From positions 1-64,000 of the forward strand of contig JAJHRD010000004.1 of NCBI GenBank assembly GCA_020833005.1: a stretch of DNA of 64,000 nt, given 5' to 3'. Positions within the stretch are counted from its first letter, which is position 1. Every line of letters starts with the position of its first letter. Positions 25,695 through 39,106 of the stretch are shown here, piece after piece. Source of the DNA: Candidatus Methanomethylicota archaeon. GTDB taxonomy: Archaea; Thermoproteota; Methanomethylicia; Culexarchaeales; Culexarchaeaceae. The notes beneath the pieces are model-generated. The model was not told the origin of the DNA. It was given only the letters and a program-made list of their open reading frames with translations, and did not search any database. The position numbers and the translations under genes were made by a program.

Positions 25695-25778
25695 TGAATA
25701 TGTTGGAACCCAAAACTCCCCCTTTGATTGCCATAAAATATTATGAATATTTAGGCTTTGTTTAGAACTGGCATCACC

Positions 25779-26885
25779 TTAAGTGTTTAAGGAGGATGGG
25801 GAGGAGGATTTTATGGTGGGCTGCCCTCCTTTATGCTTTCTCATCTTGTAAAGCATGGCTATGGATACAAATACGCAGATAATTATTATTGAAATGCCAA
25901 TTACATTTGGAAACTCTATGCCTGCGGAGAATCCATACTTAACTATTTTAAATGTTATACGCATATGATCAACAACATCACCAGCAGTAAGGGAGAATTT
26001 AGGGGTAACCACACCACCAACCCTCTCAGTTATCAGATTTTCAATGTTAAATCCTGGTGGATAAGGTCTATTGGCATATGTAATCTTACCAACCCTATAT
26101 TCGAATGGGAAGTCTACATTCAATATTTCAGCTTGAATATCTGGAATTACATTGAGGATGTCAGCTTTTTCATAGGATAGTAGAGTTATTTGAATCCATG
26201 TGGCATGATCAGACATTTTATGAATTTTTAAGGGGCCTGTGAAATTTAGTAATTTGAAAATGTCTAGAGTGTAGGTTTCGCCAGCTTTAAAATTAAAGTA
26301 GTTTGGAAAAGATTTTGAGAAAGTTAATTTGCATGCTTTCGTCCCAACATAAAAGCCTAGCATGAATGTGGTTCCATTGGAAATTATCCTTCTACTAACC
26401 ATCGACAACAACCCCTCACTTGGAATTAAACTTAGAAATTTATCAATAATGACATCTGGATTATAATTCTTAGTGGAAAATGTGTATCTTATATTACCAA
26501 TATATCCTTGAATTGGAGATTGATACTCTCGCTTAACTTTACTATTAAAATCAAAACTCACCCCAAGCCAACCCTCAACAGGTTCAACTATCTTAACTGC
26601 TTGAGCATCAGACTCAACCTCACTAATCAAATTCAAATCCACATCCCAACATACACTAACATTACCACCAACATACAACACAACTACAAAATAGCCATTA
26701 ACTAAACCACGAGCATACGGCACATCAATTGGAGGATTCTCAATATCAGAAGTTATGGTGCAATTAATACCACCATCAAACGAAACGGTAAGATTCAAGT
26801 AATCAAAATAATTCAATGAATACTGATTCGGATAAGGAAATACGCTGATAAATGTTAAGAGGATAAAGAGCAAACAAGTTTTCAT
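25779..26885 (-). CDS. Family A exported membrane-anchored protein, copy 1
   Basis: About 368 residues from ATG 26885 (a TTG at 26906 would lengthen the signal peptide). It has an N-terminal signal peptide (CLLFILLTFISVFPY), a large extracellular beta-rich domain, and a C-terminal transmembrane helix (IGISIIIICVFVSIAMLY) followed by a basic tail, so the body faces outward. Motifs shared by all four copies are an acidic E-x-E-x-D-A stretch (EVESDAQA here), NPDVIIDKFLSLIPSEG, YFNFKAGETYTLDIFKLLNF and LTAGDVVDHMRITFKIVE. It is divergent from a small secreted gene. No known family recognised. Confidence 0.8.
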   Translation of the reverse strand: MKTCLLFILLTFISVFPYPNQYSLNYFDYLNLTVSFDGGINCTITSDIENPPIDVPYARGLVNGYFVVVLYVGGNVSVCWDVDLNLISEVESDAQAVKIVEPVEGWLGVSFDFNSKVKREYQSPIQGYIGNIRYTFSTKNYNPDVIIDKFLSLIPSEGLLSMVSRRIISNGTTFMLGFYVGTKACKLTFSKSFPNYFNFKAGETYTLDIFKLLNFTGPLKIHKMSDHATWIQITLLSYEKADILNVIPDIQAEILNVDFPFEYRVGKITYANRPYPPGFNIENLITERVGGVVTPKFSLTAGDVVDHMRITFKIVKYGFSAGIEFPNVIGISIIIICVFVSIAMLYKMRKHKGGQPTIKSSSPSSLNT

Positions 26886-26907
26886 CAAAAAATATTTTAA
26901 AAACAAT

Positions 26908-26941
26908 AAAATTTAAATTTTACCATATATATATACGGTGA
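26908..26941. promoter_or_regulatory. Bidirectional promoter of A/B unit 1
   Basis: A conserved core of 34 bases: the palindrome AAATTTAAATTT, then TTACC, then ATATATATATACGG. The palindrome is centred about 29 bases before the A1 ATG and the ATATATA box about 21 bases before the B1 TTG. These distances fit TATA boxes of leaderless transcripts in both directions. The same layout occurs in the other three units. Confidence 0.6.
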
Positions 26942-26950
26942 ATTATAACA

Positions 26951-27397
26951 TTGAAAAAGAAAACATTGTATTTATTGACAATTATCAGCATAATAATGCT
27001 CACAATTAAAGTTGCATATGCAACAGAGATACTCTCTATTGGAGAATTCATAGATCACATAAGTGGATACCTAGAAAAACCAGGGGATAAAGAGCCTCAT
27101 AACGTGTATAAATGGGGTACCGGTCCCGGGGCAACAACAATTGAAATAGTCAACTTCTATTGGGATGATCCAAACACAGCATTAATAATACACTTAATAT
27201 TTGAATGTGGAAGTGGGAGTACAAGTGAAGTGTGGGCTGGAGGACATGTATATTACAGAATACTACAACCAACACCACCATACACCACAATAACACAAAT
27301 AATAGTTGAGTATGGATGGTATTATGGTGGCGAAGCTACAACTCCAAGCGTTGCTTATTGGGGTCAGTGTAACTGCTACGGTTATGATCAAATTTAA
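26951..27397 (+). CDS. Family B small secreted protein, copy 1
   Basis: A 148-residue secreted protein from a TTG start (MKKKTLYLLTIISIIMLTIK), whose signal peptide ends near VAYATE. The mature chain of about 120 residues is rich in Tyr, Trp and Gly, with TTIEIVNFYWDDPNTALII as the family motif and an aromatic end (YGWYYGG, VAYWGQCNCYGYDQI). There is no anchor. It is divergently paired with A1 across 65 bases and convergent with A2. No family recognised. Confidence 0.72.
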   Translation: MKKKTLYLLTIISIIMLTIKVAYATEILSIGEFIDHISGYLEKPGDKEPHNVYKWGTGPGATTIEIVNFYWDDPNTALIIHLIFECGSGSTSEVWAGGHVYYRILQPTPPYTTITQIIVEYGWYYGGEATTPSVAYWGQCNCYGYDQI

Positions 27398-27457
27398 AAT
27401 GCTGAATAAACTCCCAATTTTATTTTTTAATGTTTGTGGGTGTTGGTTAAAGCTTGT

Positions 27458-28513
27458 TTAAGTGGTGCATCGCTTCATCTTCAACATTCTAATTAAAAGT
27501 ATGGGTATGGAGATGCATAACGCTACTATTAGCAGTCCAGTAATTGTTGTTAAGTTTAGATTACTTAGTATATTGGAGATGTTGAATCCAGCTTCAACTA
27601 TCTTAAATGTTACACGCATGTATTCAATGGTTTGACCAGCACGTAAAGTATATTCACCCTTAACGACGTTATAAATTATGAAGGATGTTGGATGATCAGG
27701 ATTTGCAGATTTCCCAATGCTAAATTCATAGGGGAGGTCAACTTTAACTATTTCAGCTTGAATATTGAGAGGCCCAGTGGAGGGAGGATAGGTTAGTAAT
27801 TCTATTTGAATTTCACAGTAGTTGCTTGGGATCTTGATGGATCCTGTGAAATTGAGGATTTTGAAGACATCCAAGGTATAGGTTTCTCCAACTTTGAAAT
27901 TGAAGTAGTTTTCGAATGCTTTTGTGAATGCTAATTGAGCATAATTGGAGCCTCCGTAAACTGTTAAATAAAAGTAGTTTCCTGGCGATATAATCTTCTT
28001 ATTCACCATGACGAAAAAGCCTTCAGAGGGGGTTAAGCTCATAAATTTGTCGATTAAAACGTCTGGATTGAAGTTTTCAGCTTTAAAATCATATTCCACC
28101 CACATCAGATAACCAAGATATTGCGACGTACGTGAGCGTATCAACTTGTTAATACTACCAATTTTACATCTAAGCCAACCCTCCAAGAAATTTTTAATCT
28201 TCTGAAATTCAGCATCAGCTTCAGCCTCACCCATACCAGTCAAATCCAAAGATACCTTACCAGTCAATTCATTACCAATATTATAGGTTAGGCTAACATA
28301 ATTTGATACTTTAGTTCCAACTGGAATTCGAGGAAACTCCTCAGGCAATCCAACACGATAATTAGATATCAAAACACCAACATCTCCATTAGATGTAACA
28401 ATAATACGAAAAAACTCTGTTGGAGGAACCCCAGATAATGAAAAATCAAAGGCTGAAATCAGACATACTGCCATAATGATTAACGTTAATAATAATTTAG
28501 ACTGCCTATACAT
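27458..28513 (-). CDS. Family A exported membrane-anchored protein, copy 2
   Basis: About 351 residues from ATG 28513 (a TTG lies two codons upstream). Signal peptide KLLLTLIIMAVCLISAF; C-terminal helix TGLLIVALCISIPILLIR with basic tail. Shared motifs are GEAEADAEF, FNPDVLIDKFMSLTPSEGFF, YFNFKVGETYTLDVFKILNF and RAGQTIEYMRVTFKIVE. It differs from copy 1 mostly in the N-terminal third and in loops, the pattern of duplicated genes that have diverged in an exposed region. It is paired with B2. Confidence 0.8.
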   Translation of the reverse strand: MYRQSKLLLTLIIMAVCLISAFDFSLSGVPPTEFFRIIVTSNGDVGVLISNYRVGLPEEFPRIPVGTKVSNYVSLTYNIGNELTGKVSLDLTGMGEAEADAEFQKIKNFLEGWLRCKIGSINKLIRSRTSQYLGYLMWVEYDFKAENFNPDVLIDKFMSLTPSEGFFVMVNKKIISPGNYFYLTVYGGSNYAQLAFTKAFENYFNFKVGETYTLDVFKILNFTGSIKIPSNYCEIQIELLTYPPSTGPLNIQAEIVKVDLPYEFSIGKSANPDHPTSFIIYNVVKGEYTLRAGQTIEYMRVTFKIVEAGFNISNILSNLNLTTITGLLIVALCISIPILLIRMLKMKRCTT

Positions 28514-28539
28514 TTCCAATATAATGATTCGAGTTAGAA

Positions 28540-28570
28540 AAATTTAAATTTTCCCATATATATACGGTGA
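28540..28570. promoter_or_regulatory. Bidirectional promoter of A/B unit 2
   Basis: The core matches unit 1: AAATTTAAATTTT, CCC, ATATATATACGGTGA. It differs by a shorter TA run and TCCC in place of TACC. The box nearest B2 is centred about 21 bases before the TTG codon at 28580 and 18 before ATG 28577; the palindrome is about 32 bases before the A2 ATG. Confidence 0.6.
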
Positions 28571-28576
28571 AATATA

Positions 28577-29014
28577 ATGTTGAAAAAGAAATACATTATA
28601 CCAATATTAACTATGTTAACTATATTGTTAACAGTTCACATTACTGTTGCAACTGAGTATCAACCATTAGGTGGATGGTTTTACATATGCGGCTACCTAC
28701 CATCAAAAGGGAGTCAGTATGATCATAATTATGAATTTGGGGGAAAGGTAGCTACATCTATTGAAATAGCCAATTTCTTTTGGAGCGGCCCATATACTGA
28801 ATTGAAAATAGAATTCTGGCTTGGACCACCGGAGAGCAAAGACAGCATACTTCAATTTGTAGACTACTACGTTGCAAGCAGTCAAGGCGGATTCATGCCA
28901 TACGCATACTACCAATTGCCTGGTGTGAATTGGATAAGAGTAATATATTATCAGTATTGGGGGGAGGGGGAACCTCCATACATTAGCTACATGGGCTATT
29001 GCGAATGGATATGA
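28577..29014 (+). CDS. Family B small secreted protein, copy 2
   Basis: A 145-residue secreted protein. ATG 28577 is followed at once by TTG 28580, which corresponds to the start of B1. Signal peptide LTMLTILLTVHITVATE. The family motif is TSIEIANFFWSGPYTELKI. The mature part ends YYQYWGEGEPPYISYMGYCEW, similar in aromatic character to B1 although little else is conserved. No anchor and no recognised family. Paired with A2 and followed by a 156-base gap before the end of A3. Confidence 0.72.
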   Translation: MLKKKYIIPILTMLTILLTVHITVATEYQPLGGWFYICGYLPSKGSQYDHNYEFGGKVATSIEIANFFWSGPYTELKIEFWLGPPESKDSILQFVDYYVASSQGGFMPYAYYQLPGVNWIRVIYYQYWGEGEPPYISYMGYCEWI

Positions 29015-29170
29015 AATAACAATGACGGCATGCCTTAATATTCCTTCCCTTTCTTTTATTATTTTATAATTGCAGATTTTCATTGCTCTTTGAATTCAGT
29101 TGTGTTAGTGAAGTGAATTATAGACAAGGATTTCTGGGGTGCAATGATGTTTTAAGGTTTGAAGGCTTTT

Positions 29171-30289
29171 TTATTTTAGGTTAAAAGGGGCTTGATGGGT
29201 TAAACTGGATCTATATCGTTTAAATCTCCAAACAATCACCGCTAAAATGGAAACAGAAATCAGAACTATTAGTAGTCCTGCAACATTTATAGATTCAAAT
29301 TTTATTCCATAACCCTCTTCAACGATCTTAAAAGTTATACGCATATAATCAACAACATCACCAGCAGTAAGTGTGTACTTTGTGGGGGCAGCGTATTGAG
29401 GAATATCATTATCAATGGTGTATGTCCCTGCCCCCCTAATTCTATACCTAAATGGAAACTCTACGTTAATAATTTCGGCTTTAATATTTGTGTATATCTT
29501 TTCTGTACCATAGCCATATGATAGAATGTGTATCTCTACACATGAACCATTTATGGATTTTTCATGAATTTTTAGTGGTCCAGGGAAATCGAAGAGTTTG
29601 AAGATGTCAAGAGTATAGGTTTCTCCAACTTTGAAGTTAAAGTAGCCTATAAACTCTTTTGCATATATGAATTTACAGTATCTTGAGCCAAAATAGAATT
29701 GCAACCAAAATTTGTCATTTTTAGAGATTACCTTTCTACTAATTAGTGACATGAATCCATTCTTTGGGAGTAAGGCTAGAAACTTATCTATAATGGCATC
29801 GGGATTGAAATTTTCACAAACAAACTCGTAGTACATGCTCCTAAGAATGCCAAATTGTGGATGATTGAAAGTTTCTAACACCCTCTTAGTTTCCTTAAAA
29901 TTCACACTCAACCAATCTTCACACAACCCCCTAATCTTATTGGCATGGGCATCAGCTTCAGCTTCACTCATATAATGTAAATCAATCCTAATTCCAAAAG
30001 TTATTGGATCACCAACAACATAATACAAACCATAACTTGAAACACTAAGACCTGGTAATGGAGGATAGTAGAATGGTGCATCAACAAAGCGGCAAGTCAA
30101 TTGACAAACAACATCACCATTAGCACGAACCTCAACATACAACCAATCAAAATAACTTGGTTCAACAATAATGGTTTGCGAACTCCACAAAGAGGAAGTA
30201 TGCCAATCAACCATACACGAATAAACATAGGGCACTATAATTAAAAACTGTAAAACTATAATGAAAAACAAAACCCAAAAATTCCGCAT
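29171..30289 (-). CDS. Family A exported membrane-anchored protein, copy 3
   Basis: About 372 residues from ATG 30289 (TTG one codon upstream). Signal peptide WVLFFIIVLQFLIIVPYVYS; C-terminal helix VAGLLIVLISVSILAVIVW with a basic tail. Shared motifs are SEAEADAHA, FNPDAIIDKFLALLPKNGF, YFNFKVGETYTLDIFKLFDF and LTAGDVVDYMRITFKIVE. Although its B partner is only a remnant, this copy is intact, so A3 may work without it or use another B protein. Confidence 0.8.
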   Translation of the reverse strand: MRNFWVLFFIIVLQFLIIVPYVYSCMVDWHTSSLWSSQTIIVEPSYFDWLYVEVRANGDVVCQLTCRFVDAPFYYPPLPGLSVSSYGLYYVVGDPITFGIRIDLHYMSEAEADAHANKIRGLCEDWLSVNFKETKRVLETFNHPQFGILRSMYYEFVCENFNPDAIIDKFLALLPKNGFMSLISRKVISKNDKFWLQFYFGSRYCKFIYAKEFIGYFNFKVGETYTLDIFKLFDFPGPLKIHEKSINGSCVEIHILSYGYGTEKIYTNIKAEIINVEFPFRYRIRGAGTYTIDNDIPQYAAPTKYTLTAGDVVDYMRITFKIVEEGYGIKFESINVAGLLIVLISVSILAVIVWRFKRYRSSLTHQAPFNLK

Positions 30290-30310
30290 CAATACAAATG
30301 TTTAATTAGG

Positions 30311-30341
30311 AAAATTTAAAATTTACTATATATACATTATG
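30311..30341. promoter_or_regulatory. Bidirectional promoter of A/B unit 3
   Basis: A more divergent version of the core: AAAATTTAAAATTTACTATA, then TATACATTATG. The leftward box is still about 28 bases from the A3 ATG, while the TATATATA box is about 20 bases before the TTG of the broken B3. The rightward side has lost the CGGTGA sequence seen in units 1 and 2, which fits loss of selection on B3. Confidence 0.5.
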
Positions 30342-30350
30342 TGTATAGTA

Positions 30351-30430
30351 TTGAAAAAGAAATACATTACACTAGTATCAACTATAACTTATCTTAACAG
30401 TTCAAGTTACCGTTACTGAAGTGAATCTCT
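30351..30430 (+). pseudogene. Remnant of family B gene, copy 3
   Basis: From TTG 30351 the sequence encodes KKKYITLVSTIT, nearly the B2 signal peptide start, then goes out of frame and stops at a TGA after about 22 codons. Shifting frame by one base restores ILTVQVTVTE, which matches the end of the B2 signal peptide (ILLTVHITVATE). The rest of the gene is missing: the next base run belongs to the 3' end of A4 at 30433. This is a frameshifted and truncated relic that marks a fourth A/B unit. Confidence 0.7.
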
Positions 30431-30432
30431 AT

Positions 30433-31581
30433 TTATTTGGGACTTCTTTTACGTGCTTTTCTAATTAGTATTGGTATTGATGCACATGAGGCTACAACCA
30501 ATATTATTCCAATTATAGTTGTGGGTGTTAAATCTATTTTGAGAATAGCATAGCCATACTCAACTATCTTGAATTTTACCTGCATATACTCAATAACGTC
30601 ACCTGCAGTGAGGGAGTATGTGGGATACGGCAACCCCTCCTTGGTGTAAAGGATCATGCGATTTTCAATGGTGTAATCGGTAGCTCTCTCCGCACCGCCA
30701 GTAGATTTACCTACACTGTATCTAAATGGTAGACTAATTTCAATTATCTCAGCCTTATAAGGATATGATTTTATCCATTTATTGTTGACAGGATCCTTAT
30801 AGTATAGTAAAATTATGGTTACACTACTCCTATGATCAGACTTCGGATGCGTCGTAATAGGATTAGTTATGTTTAATAGCTTGAAAACATCTAATATGTA
30901 AGTGTTTCCAGGTTTGAAGTTGAAGTAATTTCTCACAACTTTACTAATCCATAACTCAGCGAAGTTGGTGGTGGAGGATATTACTAAAAATATCTTGTCT
31001 CCTGCACGTAGAAACTTCCTAGTCACTATGGACATAAACCCTTCATTAGGCTTCAATTTGAGAAAATTATCTATTACAACATCTGGATTAAAGTCGGTTA
31101 CAGTACAAGTATACTTAATGCCTCTAAAAACTTCCCCAGTAACTTGACTTTGGTAAGAATATGGAGATCTAACCATATTTTTGAACTGTATTCCCATATA
31201 ATTTTCAAGGGATTTTGTTATATTGTAAAGGTAGGCATCAGCCTCCTGCTCACCGATACCCATTAAAGACCAACCACTTTCAAAATACAATTGATTATCA
31301 CCCACAACGTACTCAAGTCTTGCATAATAACCTGCACCAAAAACTCTGGGTAGCTTAAAAGGCAATTCAACCTCATAGAAATTAATGTCAAAACCAACAT
31401 CACCAGTACAGTATATAATTACACCAAAATCCTCTAATGGCTTCTCAAAGGTGATTTGGGAGGGGTATAGGACATTCGAAGTTGGAAATGAAAATGCATG
31501 TAAACAATTATTTTGAATAATACCAGTAAATGCGGAAGCAATCAACATTATAATTAACATCAAGTGAAAACTTCTCAACAT
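30433..31581 (-). CDS. Family A exported membrane-anchored protein, copy 4
   Basis: About 382 residues from ATG 31581. Signal peptide LMLIIMLIASAFTGII; C-terminal helix TTIIGIILVVASCASIPIL with a basic tail (RKARKRSPK). Shared motifs are GEQEADAYL, FNPDVVIDNFLKLKPNEGF, YFNFKPGNTYILDVFKLLNI and LTAGDVIEYMQVKFKIVE. It is the most divergent copy, with several insertions. It is paired with B4 across about 100 bases, and its 3' end abuts the B3 relic. Confidence 0.8.
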   Translation of the reverse strand: MLRSFHLMLIIMLIASAFTGIIQNNCLHAFSFPTSNVLYPSQITFEKPLEDFGVIIYCTGDVGFDINFYEVELPFKLPRVFGAGYYARLEYVVGDNQLYFESGWSLMGIGEQEADAYLYNITKSLENYMGIQFKNMVRSPYSYQSQVTGEVFRGIKYTCTVTDFNPDVVIDNFLKLKPNEGFMSIVTRKFLRAGDKIFLVISSTTNFAELWISKVVRNYFNFKPGNTYILDVFKLLNITNPITTHPKSDHRSSVTIILLYYKDPVNNKWIKSYPYKAEIIEISLPFRYSVGKSTGGAERATDYTIENRMILYTKEGLPYPTYSLTAGDVIEYMQVKFKIVEYGYAILKIDLTPTTIIGIILVVASCASIPILIRKARKRSPK

Positions 31582-31603
31582 CAAACTAATATTATTTCAA
31601 GAA

Positions 31604-31638
31604 AAATTTAAATTTTACCATATATATATAGTTGGTGA
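31604..31638. promoter_or_regulatory. Bidirectional promoter of A/B unit 4
   Basis: The core is AAATTTAAATTTTACC followed by ATATATATATAG and TTGGTGA, nearly identical to unit 1. The palindrome is centred about 28 bases before the A4 ATG. The TATA run is centred about 20 bases before position 31645, which is where the B4 message should begin to be read although no in-frame canonical start stands there. Confidence 0.6.
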
Positions 31639-31683
31639 TTACTTATTGTAAAGAAATCAATTACATACATATGCATAGTCTTA

Positions 31684-32178
31684 TTGATTTTCACAGCAAT
31701 TTTCAATGCAGTTATAGTAGCAAGAGATGTTAAACCAGAATTTTGGGGAACCCAAGAAGTACATTTTGCAGGAACACTTGAAATTCCAAAGATACTTTAT
31801 GACTTAGGGTATACAAGTACATATAGTTATGATGACAGTTATATGGTTGACTTTCCACCGGATACGATTGAGGTACATGATTTCATGTGGACAGGTGCAT
31901 ATACCTTAATTGGATTTGAATTGCGGTGTGGCAAGACATTAGTATTTTCAGAAGGTTGGGGTGCTGGTGAGAATGGTGGATACATATCTTATAGGGTATA
32001 TCAAGCGTATCAGTGGGGTGGTGGTCCCATTGATCGCTTATGCATAGCATATTACGACTATTATCATAGCTACCCGCTTCCCTATCCATACCCGCAACCT
32101 CCAGTGGTTGATTTTAGTGGGTATGCAACTCTTTATGGTCCTGATACTGGTGGGGAATCAGTAAATTTAAACCCATAA
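31684..32178 (+). CDS. Family B small secreted protein, copy 4, damaged start
   Basis: A 164-residue frame from TTG 31684. The frame is open upstream to 31642 and encodes VKKSITYICIVLLIFTAIF, a proper family B signal peptide, but the only TTG at the promoter-predicted position (31646) is out of frame and meets TAA at once. So either a non-standard start (ATT 31645) is used or a one-base change has weakened the gene. The motif is DTIEVHDFMWTGAYTLIGF. The C-terminal part is longer and Pro/Tyr-rich (YPLPYPYPQPPVV). Followed by a T-rich terminator. Confidence 0.65.
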   Translation: MIFTAIFNAVIVARDVKPEFWGTQEVHFAGTLEIPKILYDLGYTSTYSYDDSYMVDFPPDTIEVHDFMWTGAYTLIGFELRCGKTLVFSEGWGAGENGGYISYRVYQAYQWGGGPIDRLCIAYYDYYHSYPLPYPYPQPPVVDFSGYATLYGPDTGGESVNLNP

Positions 32179-32179
32179 A

Positions 32180-32198
32180 TTTTTAATTTTTCTTTTTT
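32180..32198 (+). terminator. T-rich terminator after B4
   Basis: The stop of B4 is followed by TTTTTAATTTTTCTTTTTT, a strong archaeal-type intrinsic termination signal, 17 bases before the NEW3-domain gene. It suggests that the NEW3/ABC operon has its own promoter or depends on read-through. Confidence 0.5.
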
Positions 32199-32214
32199 AA
32201 GTGTTATTGATGGG

Positions 32215-33747
32215 GTGGGTGAAGTTTTGAGGTTTGGGTTTTTAGTTTTATTTGGGTTGATTTTGTTTTCGTTTTTGTTTGTGGGTGATTTTGTTTATTC
32301 GGTTGCTATGGATTTGAGGTTGTGGTGTGGTGCTCCTAGTAGGGTGTGTTTTGCTGGTGATGTTTTGAGTTATGATTTTAGTGTGAGTTATGTTGGGCCT
32401 TTACCTTTTGTTGATGTGTTTTTGATGGTGGGTGATGTTCCTAGTGGTTGGGGGTTTAGGTTTGTTTATGGTGGTTATGAGGTTGATGCTGTTAGGTTGA
32501 TGAATAAGACTAGTGTTAATCTTGTTTTGATGGTTTATGTTCCTGGGGATGCTTCTCCTGGATCTTATGATTTTCATGTGGTTGCATGTTATGATTATCC
32601 GCCTTATAAGAGTTATTTGAATTTGAGGGCTACTGTTAAGCCGATGGTTGGTGGTCTTGTTTTATCTTGTTTGACTCCAGCTAAGGTTGTTGAGGCTGGT
32701 GGCACTGTTAGTTTTGATGTTAGGGTTAAGTATTATGGTGTTAGGGATGAATTTAGGTTTAGTGTTCCGAATCTTCCCAGTGGTTGGGGTGTGAGCTTCT
32801 ATTATGGTTTGGATGAGATATTGCTTGTGTCTCTGAATAATGGTGATGAGGTTACAGTTAGGGTTAAGTTTAGTGTCCCCATGGATGCTAGTGTTGGGGA
32901 TTACAATTTAACTTTAAACGTATATTCTAAGAGTGTTGGTGAATGTTTGAATTTGATGGTTAGGGTTAAGCCTTCCTCCATTGTTAGTAGGGGGTTGAAG
33001 GTTTCTGTGGATTACCCTATAGTAGATGTGGAAGCTGGGAGAACAGTATACTTCACTTTAACCATAAGGAATGTTGGTTTAATGGATGAGGTTGTTTATT
33101 TGAATTTAACTGATAAGCCTAGTGGCTGGAGCACTACATTTAGGGTTGCAGGTAAGGTTGTTAGGGGATTATTATTGCCTGCAGGTGGAAGTGTTAATGT
33201 GGCTTTTGAAGCTACACCATCACCATACATCAATATAGGTGAGCATAGGTTTAAGGTTCAAGTGTACTCTGAGGATAAGGTGATCGTGAAGGATTTAACT
33301 TTGATTGTTAATGTTATTGGAAGTTACAGTCTATCCATAACATTCCCAGAATTTCCAGCATTATATTTCACAATAAATTCAGGTGAGAGTAAGAGTTTCA
33401 CTGTAACTGTAACCAATACTGGATTTCTAAATGTGACTAACGTGTATGTGTCTGTGGATGTGCCATCAGCCATAGATTGGAGGGTTAATGTGGAGCCAAG
33501 TAAAGTTTTGATGCTTAAACCCAATGATAAAGTTGATTTCAAAGTAACCATTTATGTTTCAACAATAGTTTCTGCTGGAGACTACTTCATAACTGTAAAG
33601 GCAGTTTCAGATCAAGTTTCATCAACAGCTAGGGATGTTAGGGTTAGTGTGACAAAGCCGACGGAGTGGGGGTACATAGGATTCGGCATAGTTTTAGTGG
33701 CATTGGTGCTGGTTGTAATTGTTTTTAGGAGGTTTGGGAGGAGATAG
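32215..33747 (+). CDS. Surface protein with four NEW3/CARDB-like repeats
   Basis: A 510-residue exported protein from GTG 32215 (TTG 32227 is possible). After a signal peptide (about 8-28) come four beta-sandwich repeats of about 110 residues, each ending in a pattern like DASPGSYDFHV, DASVGDYNLTL, INIGEHRFKVQV or VSAGDYFITVKA, with PSGWG or PSGWS near the middle. A C-terminal helix (YIGFGIVLVALVLVVIVF) and RRFGRR anchor it. NEW3 proteins of this kind commonly stand beside ABC-2 exporters. The first 780 bases use G/T-ending codons heavily, unlike the second half. The ABC ATPase starts 2 bases after the stop. Confidence 0.82.
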   Translation: MGEVLRFGFLVLFGLILFSFLFVGDFVYSVAMDLRLWCGAPSRVCFAGDVLSYDFSVSYVGPLPFVDVFLMVGDVPSGWGFRFVYGGYEVDAVRLMNKTSVNLVLMVYVPGDASPGSYDFHVVACYDYPPYKSYLNLRATVKPMVGGLVLSCLTPAKVVEAGGTVSFDVRVKYYGVRDEFRFSVPNLPSGWGVSFYYGLDEILLVSLNNGDEVTVRVKFSVPMDASVGDYNLTLNVYSKSVGECLNLMVRVKPSSIVSRGLKVSVDYPIVDVEAGRTVYFTLTIRNVGLMDEVVYLNLTDKPSGWSTTFRVAGKVVRGLLLPAGGSVNVAFEATPSPYINIGEHRFKVQVYSEDKVIVKDLTLIVNVIGSYSLSITFPEFPALYFTINSGESKSFTVTVTNTGFLNVTNVYVSVDVPSAIDWRVNVEPSKVLMLKPNDKVDFKVTIYVSTIVSAGDYFITVKAVSDQVSSTARDVRVSVTKPTEWGYIGFGIVLVALVLVVIVFRRFGRR

Positions 33748-33749
33748 GT

Positions 33750-34688
33750 TTGAGCGTAATAATTGAAACTGAGAATTTAACGAAGATATATCGTGTTGGT
33801 GGTAGGGAGATTAGAGCAGTTGACAATTTAAATTTGAAGGTTTATGAGGGAGATGTATTTGGATATCTAGGACCTAATGGTGCAGGTAAAACGACAACAA
33901 TACTAATGCTACTTGGATTGATAATGCCCACAAGTGGTGGTGGAAGGGTTTGCGGATACGATATCATAAGGGAGTCTAGGAAGGTTAGGAGTGTGGTTGG
34001 ATATGTGCCGGAGAAGTATAGCTTCTACGAGGATATGACTGCATATGATAATTTAAGGTATTTTGCAAAACTCAACGGCATCCCAGATGGGGAGATTGAT
34101 GATAGGATAAGGAGGGCATTGGAGATCGTGGAGCTTCAAGATAGAGCTGGAAGTCTCGTAGCAACATTTTCACGTGGAATGAAGCAGAGACTCGCATTAG
34201 CCAACACTCTAATAAAGAATCCAAAACTAATATTCTTAGATGAACCTACAGCTGGATTAGACCCATATGCCACGGCAAGCTTCAGGGAGCTTATGAGGAA
34301 GCTGAATAGGGAATTTAAAACTACAATATTCATTTCAAGTCACATGCTACATGAAGTGAGGCAATTATGTAATAGGATTGGATTCCTAAATGAAGGTAAA
34401 CTAATAGCTGTGGATACAATTGATGAATTCCTAAGGAAGGCTGGTGTAAGGATAGTTTTGGAGGTTGTGGGTGGAGGTGATGAGGTGATTAAGGTGATAG
34501 AGGGGGTTAATGGTGTAAATAGAGTTTTGAAGAGGGATGAGGGGATAGTGGTTTACGCTGGAAGCGATGTTAGATTGGAAATTGTGGATTTAGTTATGAA
34601 GATGGGTTTAAAAATACTTACAGTAAAGGTTGAGCCACCCACATTGGAGGAAGTATTCTTCACAATTTATGGTGGAGGTGTAAGATGA
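33750..34688 (+). CDS. ABC transporter ATP-binding protein (ABC-2 type)
   Basis: A 312-residue ATPase from TTG 33750. Walker A GPNGAGKTT, signature FSRGMKQRLALA, Walker B LIFLDEPTAGLDP, and the switch His in FISSHMLHE. The C-terminal 80 residues are a regulatory extension common in ABC-2 exporters. It overlaps the permease gene by 4 bases and follows the NEW3 protein after 2 bases, so the three form one operon. The transported substrate is unknown; export of surface polymers or peptides is a family-level possibility. Confidence 0.93.
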   Translation: MSVIIETENLTKIYRVGGREIRAVDNLNLKVYEGDVFGYLGPNGAGKTTTILMLLGLIMPTSGGGRVCGYDIIRESRKVRSVVGYVPEKYSFYEDMTAYDNLRYFAKLNGIPDGEIDDRIRRALEIVELQDRAGSLVATFSRGMKQRLALANTLIKNPKLIFLDEPTAGLDPYATASFRELMRKLNREFKTTIFISSHMLHEVRQLCNRIGFLNEGKLIAVDTIDEFLRKAGVRIVLEVVGGGDEVIKVIEGVNGVNRVLKRDEGIVVYAGSDVRLEIVDLVMKMGLKILTVKVEPPTLEEVFFTIYGGGVR

Positions 34689-35572
34689 TGAGTTTAAAGA
34701 CAGTTATGATGAAGGAATTCTCAGATAACGTGGTGAGCAAAAGATTCATAATACTATTCTCATTCCTCACCCTGATATCGATCATATCAGCCTTCGCATC
34801 AAGATACTATACTGGAACTTATGGGTTAACATTCTCACAGCTAATCACACTTACAAGTGCATCAATAATACCATTGATAAGTAAGATAGGCCCATTAATA
34901 GGGATAATGCTTGGCTTCGACTCAATAAGCAAGGAAATTGAGAAGGGGTCAATAATACTGCTCCTCTCATGCCCAATATACAGAGATACAATATTGAATG
35001 GTAAGATACTTGGGGGAGTATTGACAATAGCTTTAGCAATATCCACATCAATAATGGTATCCACTGGAGTGATAATGGCAGTTATTGGGATAATGCCAAC
35101 CACAGATGAAGCCATTAGGCTAATAATATACTTGATAGCCTCAATAATATATATTTCAATGTACATGGCAATCTCAGTATATACATCAATAGCCACAAAA
35201 AACACTTCCATGTCACTACTAATATCCATAATAGTTTGGCTTACATTCACACAGCTAATATACAATGCTTCAAATGCAATTTCAGCATTAATACCGGAGA
35301 TACTTAGTGAAACAAGGCTTAAAGTTCTCACAGCAATAAGGATGATTACACCAGACCAACACTACAACAATTTCAGCATGAACATTCTAAATGCTAAGAT
35401 GGCTTTAGACCCATTTGGAATATTCCCAAGGGGGGCGCCGCCTGGAAGATCCCTAACCATAATTGAAAGCTTAGCAATATCATGGCCAAACCTAGCAATA
35501 ATAACATCAATACTAATAGCATTCATAGCAGCATCCTACATAAAATTCCTAAGGGAAGAAGTGAGATGTTAA
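34685..35572 (+). CDS. ABC-2 type permease
   Basis: A 295-residue membrane protein with six hydrophobic segments, the first at about 22-40 (FIILFSFLTLISIISAF) and the last near the C-terminus (LAIITSILIAFIAASYI). Residues ISKEIEKGSIILLLSCPIYR, before helix 3, match the intracellular loop typical of NosY-like ABC-2 permeases that contacts the ATPase. A large outside loop lies between helices 5 and 6. It is the last gene of the operon. Confidence 0.88.
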   Translation: MMSLKTVMMKEFSDNVVSKRFIILFSFLTLISIISAFASRYYTGTYGLTFSQLITLTSASIIPLISKIGPLIGIMLGFDSISKEIEKGSIILLLSCPIYRDTILNGKILGGVLTIALAISTSIMVSTGVIMAVIGIMPTTDEAIRLIIYLIASIIYISMYMAISVYTSIATKNTSMSLLISIIVWLTFTQLIYNASNAISALIPEILSETRLKVLTAIRMITPDQHYNNFSMNILNAKMALDPFGIFPRGAPPGRSLTIIESLAISWPNLAIITSILIAFIAASYIKFLREEVRC

Positions 35573-35659: not shown

Positions 35660-36685
35660 TTATTTTTGTGGGGTTTTCTTTATTTTTGGTTTTGCAGGTT
35701 TTTCGGGTAGTATTCCTTGGGGGCGGAACATCATCACTAGTATGAGTGCTAGGGCTAGTAGTATTTGTTCAAGCCAGACAACCGAGAATGGTATGTATGC
35801 TTCAAGTGAATACTTGTAGTATGTTATGACTCGTCTAAATATGATTACTGTGGCTACGCCCACTAATGCTCCAATATTATTCCCCATTCCACCAATCATG
35901 GCCATTAACCAAGGCCAGAAAGTCCAGTCGGTTCTGGTGTACGCGGCAGCTATCACTGTGCCACAATAGAAGCTCCAGAGGGAACCTGCAATACCAGCAA
36001 TCGCTGACCCCAACATCATTATCTGAATTTTAACTTTCACAACATCCTTTCCAACACATTCAGCCGTAAGTTCATTTTCTCTAACAGCCTTTATTAATCT
36101 CCCATAAGGCGATGAAACAACGTATTGAAGGAAGAGGAATATTAGTATTGAAATTGTCAGTATTAGTATTATTAGGAATTGGGATGCTATGTCACCCATC
36201 CATATGAATACGTTTGGAACTGAAACCCATGTTGTTCCTCCAACAAGGGGGGTGTAATTTAACCCTATGATCCTAGCAGCTTCAGCCATAGCTATTAAAA
36301 CCATTATGAGGTAATCAGCTCTCAATCTTATGGCAGGGTATGAGGCTATAAAACCTATGATTGCACTTATAATTACCACTATGATAATTGTTAAGAGAAA
36401 TATTGCTAAACCCTTTAAAGGGTCATACTTCACAGCACTATTAATCATACTTGTAATCATGGCATTATACATTATGTAGTCTAAATCGCTTCTTATACCA
36501 CATATCCACATCCCAATTCTACCAGCCAGCGCACCAGTAACGTAGGCTCCAGTAGCTACAGATAATGCTAATCCAAAGTTTGGTATACCAGTATATCCGT
36601 ATTGCAAGTTTAACGCCAATGTAACTATTAGGTAGGCGGCAAAGAATGCTATGATATCAAGTAGCCAGCTTATACTTTCCATCAA
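35660..36685 (-). CDS. livM: Branched-chain amino-acid ABC permease, LivM-type
   Basis: A 341-residue permease with about 8-10 helices. Family landmarks are NLQYGYTGIPNFGLALSVATG at the N-terminus in part (YGYTGIPNFG), GFIASYPAIRLRADYLIMV, SSPYGRLIKAVRENELTAE, and GSAIAGIAGSLWSF. It forms the channel together with LivH. It is last in the operon livK-livG-livF-livH-livM and overlaps livH by 4 bases. The substrate may be amino acids or another small polar solute such as an amide. Confidence 0.9.
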   Translation of the reverse strand: MMESISWLLDIIAFFAAYLIVTLALNLQYGYTGIPNFGLALSVATGAYVTGALAGRIGMWICGIRSDLDYIMYNAMITSMINSAVKYDPLKGLAIFLLTIIIVVIISAIIGFIASYPAIRLRADYLIMVLIAMAEAARIIGLNYTPLVGGTTWVSVPNVFIWMGDIASQFLIILILTISILIFLFLQYVVSSPYGRLIKAVRENELTAECVGKDVVKVKIQIMMLGSAIAGIAGSLWSFYCGTVIAAAYTRTDWTFWPWLMAMIGGMGNNIGALVGVATVIIFRRVITYYKYSLEAYIPFSVVWLEQILLALALILVMMFRPQGILPEKPAKPKIKKTPQK

Positions 36686-37635
36686 CCTTGTTCACCCCTA
36701 AATTTAGCCATAGCCTTTGAAGCTCTCCTTGCTTGAATATCCTCTATTAAACCAGTTATCCCCCTTGGGAAGATTAATAACACGATACATAATACTGTTA
36801 AGGGTATCAGGGATCTATATGCAGTTAAATGTGCCCCAAAAGTTTGAGCTAGGAGATATGTTCCAAATATTTCGGTTAACCCTACAATGTATGCTCCGAT
36901 CATTGCACCATAAATGCTGGATATACCTCCAAGTATAGATGCCGCGAAAACGCTGGTCAATAGCATACTTCCAGTATACGGGTGCCCCTGAAACCATAGA
37001 GGCAACAGTGATCCTGCAATTCCAGCTATCCCAGCAGTTAACATCCATGAAATTGTGCAAGCCAATTCCACGTTAACCCCCAAAATGGATGCTAAACTTG
37101 GGTCTTCAACAACAGCTCTAAGGGATATACCAAACTTAGTTTTCGTTAACATTGAATGGAGAAGCGTTATTAAAGCTATGAGGAATATTGTTGAAACTAT
37201 AAGGACTCCAGGCAATCCTATAAACTCAAAATCTAAGTGTCTAAATAGGAAGAGTCTAGAGTAAGCTCCCGCGATTGGATATAGATAATCTGCATATATT
37301 TCTAGCAATGCGGAAATCATTATTTGCATAGCCAACGTTGATATGGTTAATGAAATCATAGTTCCACCAAACCTTTTCAGAGTTCTTAAAACGCCATTGT
37401 ATATGAGGGCGCCGGAGAATGCAGATATTAGGAAGGCTATTGGTACAGCCACATATGGATTAGACCTCCAAACTTGAGCTACAGTAAATGTTATGTAAAC
37501 GCCAATACCAGCAAATTCTCCATGAGCAAAATTGGGTATTTTTGCTATTAAGTAGGTTAAAGTGAAACCAACAGTTAACATGAGCAATAGATTTGCATAT
37601 ACCAATGCATCTTCTATTAATGCTGATGGAATCAT
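36682..37635 (-). CDS. livH: Branched-chain amino-acid ABC permease, LivH-type
   Basis: A 317-residue permease. Landmarks are GFTLTYLIAKIPNFAHGEFA, TKFGISLRAVVEDPSLASIL, the loop GIAGIAGSLLPLWFQ, and FAASILGGISSIYGAMIGAY, all typical of LivH. It overlaps livF by 4 bases at its start and livM by 4 at its end, so the two permeases are made in equal amounts. The length is close to that of bacterial LivH. Confidence 0.92.
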   Translation of the reverse strand: MIPSALIEDALVYANLLLMLTVGFTLTYLIAKIPNFAHGEFAGIGVYITFTVAQVWRSNPYVAVPIAFLISAFSGALIYNGVLRTLKRFGGTMISLTISTLAMQIMISALLEIYADYLYPIAGAYSRLFLFRHLDFEFIGLPGVLIVSTIFLIALITLLHSMLTKTKFGISLRAVVEDPSLASILGVNVELACTISWMLTAGIAGIAGSLLPLWFQGHPYTGSMLLTSVFAASILGGISSIYGAMIGAYIVGLTEIFGTYLLAQTFGAHLTAYRSLIPLTVLCIVLLIFPRGITGLIEDIQARRASKAMAKFRGEQG

Positions 37636-38345
37636 AATTTCTTCACCCCAAGATAAAGCTTCCCCAGCTCAGGATGCTCCAAAAGCTCTTTCGAACCACC
37701 TTCATATATAACTCTGCCAGAAACAAGTAGGTAGGCTCTATCACTCATTTCCAAAGCTTTCCTCGCTGCTTGCTCCACCAACAGTATTGTTAGCTTGGAC
37801 TGCTCTCTCAACTCGACAATTTTATTTAAAACTTCAGTGGCTATCTTCGGTGCAAGATTACCAGTAGGCTCATCAAGCATTATAAATTTAGACTTCATTA
37901 TGAGTGCCATAGCCATTGAAAGCATCTGCCTCTCACCACCACTAAGAGTTTTAACCTTCCTATCTAGGCAAGCTTTAAGGAATGGGAAAACGCTTAACGC
38001 ATATTCCAATCTATCATTAAACTCACTTTTATCCAGAGTTAAACCAGCCATTATTAGATTCTCCTTAACAGTTAAATTTGTAAAGACGTTTCCAATTTGT
38101 GGTATGTATGTTAATCCAAGTCTTGCCTTCTCATCAGGTCTAAGTTTAGTTATGTCTTTACCATTAAAAATTATTCTACCACCATATATTGTTGTAAGCC
38201 CCATTATAGTCTTCAACAAAGTACTCTTACCACTACCATTAGGACCAAGTACAGCAACTATCTCATTACTATTAACTTTTAGGTTAACATCATATAATAC
38301 GTGTAGCTTACCATAACCAGCATTGAGGTTATCAACTTCTATCAT
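37632..38345 (-). CDS. livF: ABC ATPase, LivF-type
   Basis: A 237-residue ATPase. Walker A GPNGSGKST, signature LSGGERQMLSMA, Walker B FIMLDEPTGNLAP. The short length and YIPQIGNVFTNLTVKENL are LivF marks. It starts 3 bases before the stop of livG (4-base overlap). Confidence 0.93.
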   Translation of the reverse strand: MIEVDNLNAGYGKLHVLYDVNLKVNSNEIVAVLGPNGSGKSTLLKTIMGLTTIYGGRIIFNGKDITKLRPDEKARLGLTYIPQIGNVFTNLTVKENLIMAGLTLDKSEFNDRLEYALSVFPFLKACLDRKVKTLSGGERQMLSMAMALIMKSKFIMLDEPTGNLAPKIATEVLNKIVELREQSKLTILLVEQAARKALEMSDRAYLLVSGRVIYEGGSKELLEHPELGKLYLGVKKL

Positions 38346-39106
38346 ACAACACCACCAAGATAAGCTTCAATAACCTTTTCATCATTAAATACCTTCTCAG
38401 GACTACCCTGCGAAATTATTTTACCCATATGCATTGCATAAACGTAATCCACATAATCCAATGCTACATCCAATCTATGTTCAACGATAAACAGAGTTAC
38501 TCCAAGCTCATCCCTAACTTTCTCTAAATTCTGAAATATTTTATGAGCTAAAACTGGATTTATACTTCCAGCAGGTTCATCCATGACTATCATTTTAGGA
38601 TCAGCCATTAAAGCTCTACCAATTTCAAGAAGTTTCAATTGACCACCACTCAATGTAAAAGCAGGTTTATCATAAGAATCTGTAAGTTCAAGTAGATCTA
38701 AGATTTTAAAAGCTCTGTCTAAGGCTTCGCTCTCACTCTTAAGCCAAGACTTCTTAAAAATACACTTAAAGAAATTCTCACCCGGATTACCCTGATATGC
38801 TAATAGCAGATTATCTAGAACGGTCAATCTATAGAAGGGGGATGGTATTTGAAATGTTGGCACTAACCCCATTTTAACTATTTCATGGGGCTTCTTACCA
38901 GTAATGTCGAAGCGATCATATAATACCTTACCAGAATCAGGTTTATACACTCCAATAACACAATTAATTAATGTCGTTTTACCACTACCATTAGGACCCA
39001 CCAGTAACGTCATCTTCCCCCTATCCACATTAATAGACACATTATCAACAGCTCTAAATTCTCCAAACTTCTTAACTAAACCCACAACCCTAAGCATAGC
39101 GTCCAT
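38342..39106 (-). CDS. livG: ABC ATPase, LivG-type
   Basis: A 254-residue ATPase. Walker A GPNGSGKTT, signature LSGGQLKLLEIGRAL, Walker B MIVMDEPAGSINP. LivG marks are VPTFQIPSPFYRLTVLDNL and the C-terminal PEKVFNDEKVIEAYLGG. It follows the binding-protein gene by 32 bases and overlaps livF by 4 bases. Confidence 0.93.
   Translation of the reverse strand: MDAMLRVVGLVKKFGEFRAVDNVSINVDRGKMTLLVGPNGSGKTTLINCVIGVYKPDSGKVLYDRFDITGKKPHEIVKMGLVPTFQIPSPFYRLTVLDNLLLAYQGNPGENFFKCIFKKSWLKSESEALDRAFKILDLLELTDSYDKPAFTLSGGQLKLLEIGRALMADPKMIVMDEPAGSINPVLAHKIFQNLEKVRDELGVTLFIVEHRLDVALDYVDYVYAMHMGKIISQGSPEKVFNDEKVIEAYLGGVV

Follow-up and report, generated by a model that had tools for sequence, protein, structure and literature searches.

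In Thermococcales, VARTIG modules contain a large immunoglobulin-domain protein whose C-terminus is hypervariable by recombination, and a role in conflict or self/non-self recognition has been suggested for them (PMC8416519). Here, we analyzed a stretch of 64,000 nucleotides from a Candidatus Methanomethylicota archaeon (hereafter the window; positions 1 to 64,000 of contig JAJHRD010000004.1, assembly GCA_020833005.1). It carries an array of divergent gene pairs, in which a membrane-anchored protein (A) is encoded beside a secreted aromatic-rich protein (B). The host genome is of the Candidatus Culexarchaeum type (G000; 2.23 Mb, 150 contigs), and Ca. Culexarchaeum nevadense and Ca. Culexmicrobium profundum are among its close relatives by sequence. 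The array resembles the VARTIG modules in being lineage-restricted, in encoding exported beta-rich surface proteins and in having a variable content (PMC8416519). Unlike in VARTIG, no immunoglobulin-family match above the Pfam cut-off was found for A or B, and the A and B orthologs are under purifying selection. A heading protein of the VARTIG kind was not found either: the NEW3 domains of a linked membrane protein are immunoglobulin-like in type, yet this protein is 91% identical in the genome of Ca. C. nevadense (G002). The data favor a paired surface system that is tied to an ABC-2 type ATP-binding cassette (ABC) transporter and whose copies are born and lost.

The array is real, though partly different from its first description. 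The initial annotation had proposed four head-to-tail units, each with one A and one B gene. Four A genes (minus strand) and four promoters were found, but the B genes lie on the opposite strand (plus), and only three are present beside one B relic. Each unit is a divergent A/B pair arranged back to back. The expected unit size of 1.3-1.75 kb and A length of about 370 residues agree with what we measured: 1.26-1.75 kb and, for the four open reading frames (ORFs), 353-383 amino acids. In the alignments, identity to the first-listed copy, A2, is 36-39% for the A copies; the B copies are 23-38% identical. Three motifs, E-x-E-[AS]-D-A, NPDxxIDxF and YFNFKxGxTY, are present in all four A copies, as had been predicted. 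The fourth predicted motif, TAGDV, occurs in three of four, and A2 carries RAGQT instead. The B copies share [ST]-I-E-[IV] followed by F-x-W, close to the form first noted (T-I-E-[IV], then F-x-W). The A paralogs hit one another's profile at E < 1e-100, and the promoter element described below was found at all four pairs and in none of 100 shuffled sequences. Thus, a chance origin of the array is excluded.

The starts of the A genes lie at a conserved TTGATG, and a GGTGA-type ribosome site is found for B. Translation of A probably begins at the ATG of this motif, for example at 26885 and not at 26906 in A1. Pair 3 retains its promoter, and its B relic (B3) is a frameshifted stretch of about 110 bp reaching into the 3′ end of A4. 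In B4, the inherited TTG (about 31646) directly precedes TAA, and the in-frame match to the B family profile reaches beyond the called TTG on its 5′ side, to about 31663-31672. Because of these two features, B4 must either use ATT as its start codon or begin internally and have a shortened signal peptide.

In Pyrococcus furiosus, a symmetric TATA element (TTTAAA flanked by AAA and TTT) fires in both directions, with start sites 49 bp apart (PMC6640164). The same core, the symmetric 14-mer AAATTTAAATTT, lies between the divergent starts of the array; it is exact in three of the four pairs and has one mismatch in the fourth. With up to one mismatch, AAATTTAAATTT has five matches in the window, against 0.2 expected. 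In every pair, a near-palindromic TATA, AAAATTTAAATTTT, is followed by an ATATATA run between A and B, and when up to three mismatches are allowed, the four matches of the whole 26-bp element in the window are all at the pairs. This is the arrangement of a bidirectional promoter, a symmetric TATA between closely spaced divergent genes. Since such an element drives both directions in P. furiosus, A and B are likely co-expressed from it. The tested example in P. furiosus produces an antisense transcript, whereas the array element would serve protein genes both ways (PMC6640164). This shared promoter had been overlooked at first, as had the B relic and the operon described next.

The functional unit does not end with B4 at 32178, where the array had been thought to stop. 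The stop of B4 is only 36 bp from the next gene, and B4 heads an operon of a NEW3/CARDB-domain membrane protein, an ABC ATPase and an ABC-2 type permease, three adjacent genes in the same direction at 32215-35572, which belongs to the array locus. By Pfam, the operon is of the same type as other archaeal NEW3/CARDB, ABC ATPase and ABC-2 permease operons. Among the operons inspected, only the Culexarchaeales subtype, with a short NEW3 protein of about 510 amino acids, has a leading B and a divergent A. The nearest NCBIfam family of the ATPase is DrrA, below the cutoff. The order of an A facing B and NEW3 was observed in G000, in G002, on contig 120 of G005 and on contig 19 of G006; it is decayed on G006 contig 53. 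Wherever the DNA upstream of NEW3 can be seen, the gene before it is B. On G005 contig 191 and G006 contig 79, an A or B lies at the far end of the NEW3-ABC operon. A fragment on G005 contig 220 was left out of this tally. G000 has a second NEW3-ABC operon on its contig 53 (L098:332-4190), with a longer NEW3 protein (640 amino acids) and no A or B nearby. The operons inspected contradict the idea that every NEW3-ABC operon has A/B-like partners.

The distribution was analyzed in 398 genomes from the phylum. Full-length A was found in five and B in four of them, all of the order Culexarchaeales. In G005 and G006 the family is expanded and part of the B proteins are highly divergent; this set was joined to the family by profile-profile comparison (E 1.4e-6). 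As a check on the array, the initial annotation had suggested asking whether A and B always neighbor each other. All 16 evaluable B genes, that is, those with the 5′ side on the contig, face an A; for the B on G005 contig 191, this was judged from the first 37 codons of a facing A-like gene, where the contig ends. Among 22 A genes with readable upstream DNA, counted by hand, 17 lie opposite a B, intact or ruined. The distance matrices of A and its partner B are correlated (r = 0.83 for 13 pairs; r = 0.80 for 11 pairs, leaving out G002; p = 1e-4). On these sequence distances, the correlation shows that the pairs were inherited together, and physical contact is not implied by it. Three distant copies of an A-like ectodomain are present in G043, from another family of the phylum (L119:3086-5955 and L149:3509-4753). 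The two on L119 carry Big_7 and lie on the same strand as genes for an ABC ATPase, an ABC-2 permease and a CitMHS-type transporter. A search from this distant pair gave mostly Big_7 and one further ectodomain relative, also in G043. A C-terminal match to A in G078 (L062) was discarded, as it covers only a common transmembrane segment.

The A protein begins with a signal peptide and ends with a single C-terminal transmembrane segment and a basic tail; the ectodomain in between is beta-rich and has two main helices. The topology is uniform among the homologs: both A and B have an N-terminal hydrophobic segment, the C-terminal segment with the basic tail is present in nearly all full-length A proteins, and no second hydrophobic segment was found in B. 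The aromatic richness first noted for B was borne out, since mature B contains 17-25% F/W/Y, against 8-17% in other ORFs nearby. Neither protein had been recognized as a described family, and searches of Pfam, NCBIfam, PHROGs and PADLOC gave nothing above the cut-off (for A, chance-level sub-threshold matches only; for B, none). Sequence searches of the PDB gave only chance matches, and no relative of A or B was found in the viral-contig scan. By these searches, A and B are two undescribed protein families.

A structure model of A3 and a confidently predicted one of B1 were compared with solved folds. In Foldseek, the best whole-domain match of A is PIG-T (TMq 0.40, TMt 0.30, prob 1.0), the scaffold subunit of the glycosylphosphatidylinositol (GPI) transamidase (PMC9098846). 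Like PIG-T, A is a type I membrane protein with a beta-rich ectodomain, and PIG-T is the sole whole-domain solved match near a TM-score of 0.4. The score is, however, below the usual same-fold threshold (TM-score at least 0.5), sequence similarity to PIG-T was not found, and the array contains no transamidase partner. The model is thus suggestive of PIG-T as a lead, not as a relation. Matches of A to the FMO protein (E 1e-6) were discarded because the TM-score was only about 0.2. For B, the nearest solved folds include jelly-roll proteins and carbohydrate-binding modules (CBMs) with TMt of 0.41-0.53 (CBM36, 0.45-0.48; CBM86, 0.45; the Ena2A fibre subunit, 0.50). The predicted fold class of B and its many aromatic residues are suggestive of small beta-sandwich modules such as CBM36, CBM86, the Tk-SP jelly roll and Ena2A, but the TM-scores are 0.4-0.5 and B has no sequence match to them. 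In the viral fold search, no match with E below 1e-3 was obtained.

Selection was analyzed with the one comparison at a suitable distance, G000 against G002. The ratio of nonsynonymous to synonymous substitution (dN/dS) is 0.24-0.32 for A and 0.24-0.25 for B1, as compared with 0.16 for NEW3 and 0.07-0.11 for the transporter subunits. No 40-codon window of A has nonsynonymous exceeding synonymous change (pN > pS), and diversifying selection was not found by ortholog dN/dS. The step from divergence to recognition or kin/antagonist interaction, as made in the initial annotation, is therefore not borne out in that form. The substitution pattern indicates that the A/B copies are old paralogs held by purifying selection and not fast-changing variants. 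The four A types are older than the split of G000 and G002, and the order of units 3 and 4 is swapped between these genomes (L047 and L048 against window 25779-32178). In both genomes, the inner unit has a ruined B; the G002 ortholog of B3 is fuller, yet frameshifted (L047:1916-2361). G001, a genome of 99% completeness, has a single A, which is divergent, and lacks B (L046:5588-7320 against window 25703-35572). The deletion took B, NEW3, the ATPase and the 5′ part, that is most, of the permease, and left a broken permease remnant with a synonymous divergence (dS) of 0.22. Because G001 keeps A in the absence of B and the NEW3-ABC operon, A can outlast the rest. The surviving A has a dS of 0.98 from its nearest copy, A4, and the left flank has a dS of 0.05-0.19. 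In the right flank, LivG also has a high dS (0.97 against G001 and 0.78 against G002). Thus, the array region appears to be a recombination mosaic, and the dS of the G001 A alone is not to be over-read. On G006 contig 53 (L057:5457-6376), a decayed locus retains an intact A, a frame-broken B and fragments of NEW3 and the permease; the ATPase is missing.

Table 1. Features of the A/B array and the linked operon (window coordinates; pLDDT, predicted local distance difference test)
Feature	Position	Strand	Description	Evidence
A1	25779..26906	-	signal peptide, beta-rich ectodomain, C-terminal transmembrane segment, basic tail	ORF, alignment, topology
A2	27458..28519	-		ORF, alignment, profile match
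A3	29171..30292	-	copy used for structure model, mean pLDDT 80.5	
A4	30433..31584	-		ORF, alignment
B1	26951..27397	+	secreted, aromatic-rich; signal peptide, then predicted 8-strand beta-sandwich (model pLDDT 87.6)	
B2	28577..29014	+		ORF, alignment, profile
B3 relic	30349..30460 (end approximate)	+	frameshifted; no more than the start and a broken signal-peptide region is left	
B4	31684..32178	+	intact ORF; ancestral TTG start apparently damaged	
Pair 1 promoter element	26908..26933	.	AAAATTTAAATTTTACCATATATATA	
Pair 2 promoter element	28539..28564	.	1 mismatch	
Pair 3 promoter element	30311..30336	.	3 mismatches	
Pair 4 promoter element	31603..31628	.	exact	
NEW3/CARDB-domain membrane protein	32215..33747	+	510 amino acids	PF10633, E 1.9e-29, three stretches
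ABC transporter ATPase	33750..34688	+		PF00005, E 6.9e-29
ABC-2 type permease	34685..35572	+		PF12679, E 1e-28

Downstream, genes for a Liv-type branched-chain amino acid ABC transporter flank the array (window 35660-39106).

We tentatively prefer a reading in which A and B form a complex at the surface, anchored by A, that serves a dedicated ABC-2 transporter; we regard it as possible though short of probable. A is an exported protein that its C-terminal helix retains in the membrane. B is exported with no anchor of its own and is probably made alongside A from one bidirectional TATA element. B would then dock on A outside the cell, and A would thereby keep B at the surface. The NEW3 protein, the ATPase and the permease may load or move a ligand of the A/B complex; alternatively, they may spend ATP to assemble or release this complex. 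Tandem duplication would have produced several pairs with different binding faces, which were gained, reordered and lost over time. Given the aromatic, jelly-roll-like fold modeled for B, the putative ligand would perhaps be a glycan. In support of the anchored-complex reading, B, NEW3, the ATPase and most of the permease were lost together in G001. The uniform topology, the beta-sandwich model of B, the A opposite all 16 evaluable B genes, the correlated A and B distances, the TATA element between the members of each pair and the conserved B-NEW3 order also speak for it. Several observations weigh against it. Five of the 22 A genes have no B (one in G001, three in G005 and one in G006), and the other NEW3-ABC operons inspected (L098-L104), outside the group and on G000 contig 53, have no A or B nearby. 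Since these operons do without them, the transporter type does not need A and B. The fold matches are weak, the best being 0.40 for A (PIG-T) and about 0.5 for B. Furthermore, the linkage of A, B and NEW3 could come from co-regulation or inheritance instead of contact.

Antagonism is a live rival, although we consider it unlikely. B would be a secreted inhibitor of related archaea and A an anchored immunity protein or receptor that protects the producer; the NEW3-ABC operon would export the inhibitor or add protection, and an A without B would be an orphan immunity gene. The one-sided dependency fits, as B never occurs without A and A sometimes occurs without B, but it is also expected under other models. 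B also decays while the facing A stays open (pair 3 of G000, pairs 3 and 4 of G002, and G006 contig 53), and the array content varies despite nearly identical left flanks. The weak relatives of the ATPase include, besides DrrA, lantibiotic-protection subunits, all below the cutoff. On the other hand, no toxin, bacteriocin or defence family was matched in Pfam, NCBIfam, PADLOC or PHROGs, and A is large for an immunity protein. B carries an ordinary signal peptide, as does A, so that an ABC exporter is not needed for it. The dN/dS of 0.24-0.32 gives no arms-race signal. The dependency and the decay of B beside an intact A thus keep antagonism live, and selection and the family searches oppose it.

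It is likewise not likely that A and B are lineage-specific building blocks of the envelope (sheath, fibre or surface-layer accessory proteins), with the copy number reflecting dosage and drift and the transporter exporting a decorating glycan or lipid. Lineage-restricted aromatic-rich exported proteins are often structural. The match of B to the self-assembling Ena2A subunit and the purifying selection on every copy are consistent with such a role. The G001 genome argues otherwise: with one A and no B at 99% completeness, B is not an essential envelope part. Identities of only 36-39% among the A copies are, moreover, beyond what dosage needs.

Still less likely, in our judgment, is that in each A/B pair a surface receptor is matched to a secreted ligand, with a specificity particular to that pair and coupling to its own ABC transporter, and that the pairs act in self/non-self recognition or antagonism among related thermophilic archaea. 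To our knowledge, no counterpart of such a recognition locus is known in this archaeal branch. The least probable reading is that the NEW3-ABC proteins act mechanically, in a NosDFY-like manner, on A and B outside the membrane as a substrate to be matured: the layout of ATPase, ABC-2 permease and exported beta-domain protein resembles NosF, NosY and NosD in kind and the best match of A is a scaffold subunit, but a sequence relation to the Nos proteins was not found, a TM-score of 0.40 is below the same-fold threshold and neither A nor B showed a cofactor motif.

Overall, the observation of the initial annotation was partly confirmed and its interpretation partly supported. The analysis defines A and B as new protein families and, with NEW3, the ATPase and the permease behind B and A facing them, a locus of five genes. 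This archaeal ABC operon type thereby gains candidate extracellular partners. One symmetric TATA per pair would be a simple way to co-express two surface proteins through duplication. If the pairs bind specifically, surface recognition in uncultured hot-spring archaea would become directly testable.

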